This document shows, piece after piece, positions 9,944-53,269 of a stretch of DNA of 64,000 nt (positions are counted from its first letter, which is position 1; each line of letters begins with the position of its first letter). This DNA comes from Clostridia bacterium. Its GTDB lineage: Bacteria; Bacillota; Clostridia; Christensenellales; DTU072. The notes beneath the pieces were generated by a model. That model saw nothing but the letters and a program-made list of their open reading frames with translations. It had not been told where the DNA came from and ran no database searches. Position numbers and translations under genes: made by a program. The stretch spans positions 1 to 64,000 of the forward strand of contig JAFQOO010000001.1 of NCBI GenBank assembly GCA_017403145.1. Reading direction: 5' to 3'.

Positions 9944-10099
9944 TCACAAATCTCATTTTTGTTCGACAAATTCTAATTTATCAATCAAATCCTTTTTAAA
10001 TATACCATATAAGAACAAAAAACTCAATAACCTTATGATTTTATAAGAAATATCATTTTTTATTTTGGCACTATAACGTGTGCTTGTCTTGGTAAAGTC

Positions 10100-10292
10100 G
10101 GTGGACGATAACGGACCGCGAAAGAATGTCTCATTCGTAGAATTAGATAGAATATGATTAATAACTTGTAATAAATTGTAGTTAGTTAACAAACAAAAAA
10201 TGCAAAGCATTTTTCTTTCGCCAGGTTTGCTAACGCAAACTTGCGCACCGCAATTGCTTTGCAATAGCGTGCACTGTCCGTTATCGTCCACC
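10100..10292. repeat. tRNA-tailed palindromic repeat E1 (Val-type ends)
   Basis: The left end GGTGGACGATAACGGAC and right end GTCCGTTATCGTCCACC are a perfect 17-bp inverted repeat. The right end equals the 3' end of tRNA-Val (located 43 kb away at 53194). Between them lie the conserved core CGCGAAAGAATGTCTC, an AT-rich middle, the block TTTCGCCAGGTTTGCTAACG and small hairpins (TTGCTTTGCAA). No ORF here is credible. Confidence 0.7.
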
Positions 10293-10299
10293 ACTGCTA

Positions 10300-10345
10300 T
10301 AAACAAAAAAGTCGAACACACAATGTGTTCGACTATGTTTTGCAG
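10300..10345 (-). terminator. Terminator-like hairpin between repeats E1 and E2
   Basis: AGTCGAACACA/TGTGTTCGACT around CAA, followed on the minus strand by TTTTTTG. Its position after a tRNA 3'-end copy mirrors the true tRNA-Ala terminator. Confidence 0.55.
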
Positions 10346-10346
10346 T

Positions 10347-10612
10347 GGTGGAGACAAGGGGAGCGCGAAAGACTATCTCAAACTAAGTAATGATAAAGTA
10401 AGATTAAAGCGCTTGTAATGCTGTTTAGTTGGTAAATATACTTGAACGCAATGCGTTCACTTTCGCCAGGTTTTTGCTTAGCAAAATGCCAAACTTGTTT
10501 TGGCTATAATGTGAGCAACGCGAACTATAATTTGAACGAAGTGAGTTACTCGCAAAAACTTGCGCACCCCGTTTGCTTTGCAAAAGGGGTAAGCGCTCGT
10601 CTTGTCTCCACC
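10347..10612. repeat. tRNA-tailed palindromic repeat E2 (Ala-type ends)
   Basis: This has the same architecture as E1, but the inverted ends copy the adjacent tRNA-Ala: GGTGGAGACAAGGGGAG on the left and CTTGTCTCCACC on the right. The core CGCGAAAGACTATCTC follows the left end directly. The block ACTTTCGCCAGGTTTTTGCT and several small hairpins are present. Both ends therefore changed together between E1 and E2. Confidence 0.7.
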
Positions 10613-10657
10613 GCACACAAAAGAAAAAGACGAACTTAATGTTCGTCTTTTCGTGTG
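10613..10657 (-). terminator. tRNA-Ala terminator
   Basis: On the minus strand directly after the CCA end: AAAAGACGAAC/GTTCGTCTTTT around ATTAA, then TTTCTTTT. The same element is copied at 6865-6891. Confidence 0.75.
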
Positions 10658-10733
<76 letters not shown>

Positions 10734-10831
10734 AAGGCGAATTTTATTTTAATATATTGGCTAAGCTTTGTCAATTGATTGTAATAAAATCGTGCAAAAG
10801 TTGTATATTTTACTTTTTCACATAACTTTCA

Positions 10832-15528: not shown

Positions 15529-15532
15529 ATTA

Positions 15533-15638
15533 ACGTGACCTGCGACTGACGGAACTTTATGGATTACCATAGTGGAGCAGATCATATGTAAGCCGACCGT
15601 CTGGGCGCACTTATCTAATAGATTTGTGCGCCCTTTTT
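15533..15638 (+). promoter_or_regulatory. ZTP (pfl) riboswitch with terminator
   Basis: The 5' domain contains ACGTGACCTGCGACTGACGG and GGATTACCATAGTGGAGCAG. The 3' domain holds the conserved GCCGACCGTCTGGGC. These are the signature segments of the ZTP/ZMP-sensing pfl RNA. The last part of the aptamer runs into a terminator GGGCGCAC/GTGCGCCC followed by TTTTTT (about 15603-15638), so ligand binding would compete with termination. ZTP riboswitches turn on folate and purine genes when formyl-tetrahydrofolate is short, which fits the purine and fhs genes downstream. Confidence 0.93.
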
Positions 15639-52787: not shown

Positions 52788-52968
52788 GGTGGACGATAAC
52801 GGACCGCGAAAGAATGTCTCGCATAATGACAATATTAGTTAAGTATCTTTCACGTAATAGGGATAGTTTTAGATATGCTTGAACGCATCGCGTTCACTTT
52901 CGCCAGGTTTGCTAACGCAAACTTGCGCACCGCGCTCACTTTGTGAGAGCAAAAAAGTAGCGCATATA
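52788..52968. repeat. tRNA-tailed repeat E3
   Basis: This begins with the tRNA-Val-like end GGTGGACGATAACGGACC and the core GCGAAAGAATGTCTCGC, then ATAATGACAATATTAGTTAA and TTGAACGCATCGCGTTCACT, TTTCGCCAGG, and ends in hairpins. It lacks the right inverted end because E4 follows at once. Confidence 0.7.
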
Positions 52969-53152
52969 GTGGACGATAACGGACCGCGAAAGACTGTCTC
53001 GCATAATGACAATATTAGTTAAATATCTTTCACGTAATAGGGATAGTTTTAGATATGCTTGAACGCATCGCGTTCACTTTCGCCAGGTTGCTAACGCAAC
53101 TTGCGCACCGCGATTGCTTTGCAATAGCGGTGAAGGTCCGTTCGTCCGTCAA
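52969..53152. repeat. tRNA-tailed repeat E4 (tandem copy of E3)
   Basis: This is near-identical to E3 over its first ~150 bases, starting GTGGACGATAACGGACC and with core GCGAAAGACTGTCTCGC. It ends in a degraded inverted tRNA-Val end (GGTCCGTTCGTCCGTC). It lies 42 bases from the CCA end of the real tRNA-Val. Confidence 0.7.
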
Positions 53153-53193
53153 CAAAACAAAAAAGCAACCTAAATTGGTTGCTTTCGTTTTGT
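53153..53193 (-). terminator. tRNA-Val terminator
   Basis: On the minus strand after the CCA end: AAAGCAACC-AATTT-AGGTTGCTTTTTTG; the stem AAGCAACC/GGTTGCTT is followed by T6. Confidence 0.75.
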
Positions 53194-53269
53194 TGGTGGA
53201 CGATAACGGACTCGAACCGCTGACTTTCTCCACGTCAAGAAGACACTCTACCAACTGAGTTAATCGTCC
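53194..53269 (-). tRNA. tRNA-Val (anticodon GAC)
   Basis: The 76-nt cloverleaf on the minus strand includes CCA. Acceptor GGACGAT/ATCGTCC, D-arm ACTCAGTTGGTAGAGT, anticodon stem TCTTC/GGAGA with loop TTGACGT, so the anticodon is GAC. T-arm AGCGGTTCGAGTCCGTT. Repeats E3 and E4 lie just beyond its terminator. Confidence 0.93.

Follow-up and report, generated by a model that had tools for sequence, protein, structure and literature searches.

The repeats behind the Escherichia coli tyrT gene have been known for decades as the oddity of a single locus, and to our knowledge RtT repeats have been reported only in this form. In E. coli K-12 tyrT/tyrV, the 178-bp repeat unit (RtT RNA, RttR, RF00391) starts at tRNA residue 59 and runs from the tRNA 3' end through a spacer, residues 59-68 in inverted orientation and a structured core to a second, displaced copy of the 3' end (TTCGA/ATCCTTCCCCCACCACCA ... 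GGGGAAGGAT/GAGAAGC ... GAGTA/ATCCTTCC). The annotated RttR RNA has its 3' end at the right-arm CCA. When we examined 13 gammaproteobacteria, 11 contained 3-18 copies of RF00391, in tandem and behind several tRNAs per genome. The loci that we read are located downstream of the tRNAs for Tyr, Lys, Pro and Ser and have the same boundary (residue 59 matched in 25/25). In those of Lys, Pro and Ser, the spacer includes a terminator hairpin. The second system to be considered are genomic islands, for which a restored tRNA gene together with a displaced fragment is the mark of integration (PMC4383910, PMC9897764); tyrosine integrases use the T-loop of tRNA genes according to Williams 2002, as cited in these two articles.

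The window analyzed here, a stretch of 64,000 nucleotides, contains two arrays of short units, one behind tRNA-Ala(GGC) and one, with two copies at 52797-53137, behind tRNA-Val(GAC) (Table 1). In the orientation of the tRNA gene, the tRNA is followed by a terminator hairpin, the left arm, the core and the right arm. A preliminary description of this DNA had recognized that the ends of the unit E1 form a perfect 17-bp inverted repeat that is identical to the last bases of a tRNA-Val, which is tRNA-Val(GAC), and that the ends of E2 match the neighboring tRNA-Ala. The inverted arms of E2 are 90% complementary over 20 nt (10347-10366 and 10593-10612), and the stem of the Ala-unit terminator extends outward on both sides, into the 3' end of tRNA-Ala and into the left arm of E2.

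Table 1. Components of the two arrays and further features of the 64-kb window.
Feature	Position	Strand	Remarks
ORF of 668 aa	7780..9786	-	resembles a MATE-type efflux protein fused to a cytidylate-kinase-like domain (judged by eye)
E1 right arm	10100..10116	-	copy of tRNA-Val 59-75 (GTCCGTTATCGTCCACC)
E1 core	10117..10275	-	P2-P6; P4 strands 10118-10124 and 10215-10221
E1 left arm	10276..10292	-	reverse complement of tRNA-Val(GAC) 59-75; inverted repeat I5, 100%
Second terminator hairpin	10301..10341	-	nearly the same as the hairpin behind tRNA-Val in the relative G007 (L098); opens the moved Val unit
E2 right arm	10347..10363	-	direct tRNA-Ala copy starting at residue 59 (CTCCCCTTGTCTCCACC); direct repeat D4, inverted repeat I3
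E2 core	10364..10595	-	P2, P3 (with long P3 insert), P4, P5, P6; 3' end ...TTTCGCG
E2 left arm	10596..10612	-	reverse complement of tRNA-Ala 59-76, partly decayed
Ala-unit terminator hairpin	10620..10652	-	inverted repeat I1, 27 nt, 85%
tRNA-Ala(GGC)	10658..10733	-	host of the Ala array; residues 59-76 are the source of the E2 arms; ARAGORN and Rfam RF00005
ZTP riboswitch	15532..15613	+	upstream of a purE-like ORF
Val unit 2	52788..52967	-	core and right arm intact, left arm lost
Val unit 1	52968..53190	-	terminator, decayed left arm, core, right arm
tRNA-Val(GAC)	53194..53269	-	host of the second array; ARAGORN and Rfam RF00005

The arms of the units follow the sequence of the host tRNA. Among 38 first units, the mean fit of the arms to their own tRNA was 19.8 for the left and 20.9 for the right arm, compared to 11.9 and 13.2 with shuffled tRNAs, and none of 5000 shuffles of tRNA identity reached the observed score for either arm. 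The comparison of the ends of copies with their tRNAs, which the preliminary description had proposed as a check, supports target capture across 20 isoacceptors plus tmRNA. The rule that the ends follow the tRNA beside the unit holds for E2 and for the 33 of 38 first units that fit their own tRNA best, but not for E1, whose tRNA-Val(GAC) is located 43 kb away. Where the tRNA ends differ between species, as in Val(CAC) with AGTGCGC or ATTGCGC and Leu(UAA) with AACGG or AGTGG, the arms differ accordingly. The junction between arm and core had been placed correctly at the T-loop and can now be defined to the base: of 27 right arms, 26 match at residue 59 and not one matches at residue 56, 57 or 58, and the matched right arms carry four different letters at position 59. 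The unit therefore sits exactly between residues 58 and 59 of the tRNA or tmRNA gene. Behind tRNA-Gly(CCC) of a relative, residue 59 is the exact starting point of the arm of a perfect 35-nt palindrome (L313); the inner boundary of the left arm has decayed in many copies, with a strict match of residue 59 in 5/10, and some right arms have drifted away from the sequence of their host tRNA. Each unit opens with a new copy of residues 59-76 and a terminator belonging to it, so that the tRNA remains intact, and continues with an inverted copy of 59-76, a non-coding core and a second direct copy of 59-76. In at least one case the original terminator of the tRNA is visible behind the displaced end, with empty-site support coming mainly from one tRNA (Ser): in G007, the last right arm of the tRNA-Ser(GCU) array is followed by a terminator resembling those of Ser loci free of units.

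The preliminary description had regarded the repeats as being of an unrecognized kind, which has to be revised because the RtT repeats of E. coli have the same layout. In both cases, a direct repeat from residue 59 to the 3' end bounds the unit, an inverted copy lies inside, and units occur in tandem behind the tRNA. However, the RtT core is unrelated in sequence to that of the window family and differs from it in fold. RF00391 had no match in the window at the gathering score, nor at E≤5 over positions 10000-10740, and the covariance model of the window family (R1) had no match to RtT loci, so that the window family is RtT-like in its working but outside the RtT RNA family. In the window, the core matched no family in Rfam. 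Moreover, all RtT loci that we read have A at residue 59, whereas the window family has longer arms and occupies 20 isoacceptors plus tmRNA. The identical layout in combination with an unrelated core therefore makes the window family a new, much broader family of the RtT-like kind. With an unrelated core found in this layout, exact to the base, at about twenty tRNAs of a distant lineage, a one-locus oddity becomes a recurrent kind of element with a defined boundary.

The core is a structured RNA with a basal helix P1, formed by the left and right arms, and the helices P2-P6. P1 encloses P2, P3 and P4 in the predicted folds of many copies, but second tandem units, although they retain the right arm, often lack the left arm and P1 is thus dispensable in places. 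The helices P4, P5 and P6 covary, with 96.9% of cells paired and a covariation of 0.277 compared to 0.127 after shuffling and at most 0.075 in slid controls; both sides had changed in 63 cells, compared to 20 expected and at most 7 in slid controls. P4 occurs as GCGAAAG/CTTTCGC and also as GCAAAAG/CTTTTGC, and the pairing of P3 is kept through about 50 sequence variants. A second subtype in other species has retained P2-P3 and the arms together with a different 3' half. A hammerhead reading of its CTGANGAG motif was dropped because the remaining parts of a hammerhead are out of place.

The genus contains at least 66 distinct copies, of which 53 are located on the same strand behind a tRNA or tmRNA. 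We counted 19 copies in the window's genome, 23 in G007, 11 in G011 and 7 in G002, and weaker or variant copies are present in further species of the genus. Units are about 180-300 bp long, first units begin 76-96 nt behind the host tRNA, and tandem units were found for Arg and Glu (three each) and for Val, Leu and Pro (two each). The hosts are about 20 tRNA isoacceptors, namely Val(GAC, CAC), Ala(GGC, CGC), Arg(CCU, ACG), Asn, Glu(CUC), Pro(CGG), Thr(GGU, CGU), Ser(UGA, GCU), Leu(UAA, CAA), Gly(CCC, GCC), Met and Lys(CUU), as well as tmRNA; Leu(GAG) is probably a further host. Among 118 relatives, copies were confined to members of the genus, save for one marginal match in another family (E 0.003), near which a tRNA was not found. 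An exact pattern of the core matched 8 of 396 genomes of the order, all belonging to the window's genus, and had no match in viral contigs; these searches are keyed on the core and hence blind to unrelated cores in the same layout. Matches from a contig scan with a loose pattern look like chance, and among the matches listed, those checked had no tRNA near.

We favor, with a probability of roughly 0.55, the reading that the units are tRNA-nested repeats of the RtT kind with a new core, gained at the T-loop and completed by fold-back copying of the left arm. A unit would be gained at the conserved T-loop when the DNA breaks or exchanges strands between residues 58 and 59, and because the break would fall inside the tRNA, the right end of the gained unit would automatically be the end of the new tRNA. 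T-loop exchange between different tRNAs would first yield a hybrid tRNA; the model needs a copy of residues 59-76 that comes from the target itself. The left arm may originate from self-primed fold-back copying off the terminator hairpin on a template that ends at the 58/59 break, and copying that runs off at residue 59 would produce an exact palindrome. The inverted left arm extends the terminator stem outward as far as residue 59. The match between the arms may be maintained by template switching at a later stage or by selection acting on P1. Among the mechanisms considered in the preliminary description, insertion at the T-loop is consistent with the exact boundary and hairpin-based copying with the terminator-centered palindrome, while the covarying core is compatible with selection for a long RNA stem, which may act additionally. 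Copying by a reverse transcriptase, and with it a retron or another RT-driven element, is contradicted by the presence of RVT_1 in only 2 of 13 species and its absence from G007, the genome richest in copies.

A dedicated mobility enzyme was not found among the reverse transcriptases, Y1 transposases and tyrosine recombinases examined. Y1 transposases were not found in G000, G007 and G011, and G007 has a single tyrosine recombinase despite its 23 copies. The existence of copy-rich genomes without reverse transcriptase or Y1 transposase, and with only one tyrosine recombinase in G007, points to host recombination or replication enzymes as the likely agents, and a dedicated enzyme in the same genome may not be needed. 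The one reverse transcriptase in the window's own genome (G000), a lone 404-aa ORF between rho-like and aldolase-like ORFs (C13:113123-113752, L240), is unlinked to any unit. Our findings raise the questions of what cuts or joins at tRNA residues 58 and 59 and whether the RNAs of the units affect tRNA supply. More tentatively, and in our view doubtfully, RtT repeats and the window family might be two cases of a widespread, unrecognized class of enzyme-less structured-RNA units that enter tRNAs between residues 58 and 59 and have their arms copied via the terminator hairpin. As the arms of such units would be copied back through the terminator hairpin of the host, any tRNA could host them.

By analogy to the annotation of E. 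coli RttR, tRNA maturation may free transcribed units in the form of small RNAs with a tRNA-like CCA at their end. One could go further and regard the units as selected small-RNA genes of the host that are released with the tRNA precursor, that need the match of the arms for processing or regulation, and that have not been mobile beyond old duplications. The arms would then provide a tRNA-like 3' end, or the left arm would pair with the 3' half of the tRNA upon read-through of the terminator. The maintenance of a covarying core across species of the genus, the finding of copies behind one and the same tRNA in more than one species and the annotated 3' end of RttR at the right-arm CCA agree with such a function. 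In addition, the value predicted for the acceptor stem decreased from 0.75-0.99 to 0.24 or less at 15/15 loci when the left arm was included in the folded transcript, although folding was calculated at equilibrium only and without co-transcriptional order. In the same equilibrium folds of read-through transcripts, the 3' half of the tRNA entered a long hairpin at 15/15 loci, from which it was freed by the right arm in one locus. Since the left arm abolishes the predicted acceptor stem, it could serve as a read-through switch, and judged from these models a regulatory role of the units is possible. However, copy number and the set of host tRNAs vary by species (19, 23, 11 and 7 copies in four species), processing would not require the exact 58/59 boundary, and displaced copies exist, all of which makes a purely functional explanation unlikely.

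Replication template switching alone would require only an immobile core behind the tRNAs, with the correction of quasi-palindromes repeatedly re-matching the arms to the tRNA. The long perfect palindromes through terminators that differ in sequence from locus to locus are in line with this possibility, as are changes that left and right arms have in common and that are absent from the tRNA (Arg CAAGG, Glu GTGTGCA). Yet it leaves unexplained how the core spread to so many tRNAs and why residue 59 is the precise start of the right arm, with residues 56-58 never matching, and we consider it rather improbable as the sole process.

That the units are remnants of integrative elements of T-loop tyrosine integrases, with the cores as decayed attachment regions, is very unlikely: the restored gene with a displaced fragment is the known mark of islands (PMC4383910, PMC9897764) and the junction of the units lies in the T-loop, but a single covarying RNA core at 20 tRNAs plus tmRNA, the inverted second arm, the tandem arrays, the lack of core matches in viral contigs, the small size of the units, which leaves no room for an integrase gene, and the single tyrosine recombinase beside 23 copies in G007 all argue against it.

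Genomic islands themselves share with the window units the restored tRNA, the original 3' end at the far end and the T-loop junction, but the units have a common core at many tRNAs as well as an inverted arm, and with about 0.2-0.3 kb (180-300 bp) they contain no integrase gene of their own. MITEs and REP/IS200-type repeats are likewise short, multicopy and bounded by terminal inverted repeats, which in the window units consist of host tRNA sequence instead of family sequence. A MITE was rejected as the terminal inverted repeats are not constant within the family and change with the host tRNA, and an IS200/IS605 or REP element was rejected on the absence of the Y1 transposase from G000, G007 and G011. 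The window has no Rfam group II match that would support a group IIC intron, and bridge RNAs or TnpB-type guide RNAs, which we had also considered, were given up with no partner gene in view.

The tree of the cores groups copies partly by tRNA, with none of 200 shuffles equally clustered, but exchanges are present and many of its forks are weak. Different species can have copies at the same tRNA. Units are inherited together with the host tRNA, form tandem duplicates and at times relocate while keeping their old ends, as in E1. The terminator and left arm of E1 are almost identical to those of tRNA-Val in G007, and its core is 85% that of the tRNA-Val core in G011. With terminator, left arm, flank and ends all Val-like, E1 is, as judged from its sequence, a tRNA-Val unit relocated into the tRNA-Ala array. 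Several other copies lack a neighboring tRNA but have arms that allow attribution to one, among them copies on the same strand 9.6 kb behind tRNA-Leu(CAA) (C7) and 2 kb behind tRNA-Ser(GCU) (C9). The ends of one tRNA kept at another location had been named beforehand as evidence against target capture, and such ends are indeed found in E1, in the copy on C17 and in the copies 9.6 kb and 2 kb away from their tRNA. The tRNA from which these ends derive can be identified, so that the copies resemble units that were moved or separated rather than counter-examples.

A tail similar to ACAAGCACACG..TAGTGCCAAAAT recurs behind several units, including E1 (window positions 10016-10099), the copy on C17 of G000 (L089), L108 and L274, indicating that the copying of E1 and of the C17 copy took more than the unit. 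In G006, a unit with the left arm of tRNA-Asn and without any tRNA nearby (L247, C7:8270) adjoins a broken Y1 (IS200-type) transposase gene (C7:7728-8068). At the end of contig C139 of G004, a unit with tRNA-Lys ends and without a tRNA (L288) is flanked by a large inverted repeat, possibly due to a fold-back in the assembly. A further repeat family, distinct from the one described here, has inverted ends and a separate terminator and begins at the CCA of several tRNAs (CCAAACCGAGGATAAGGGCGCA...TCCTCGGTTTGG; L359, L360, L361 and L365 in G001, L379 and L382 in G003). At L382, this repeat has tRNA-Asn on one side and the remnant of an RtT-like unit on the other.
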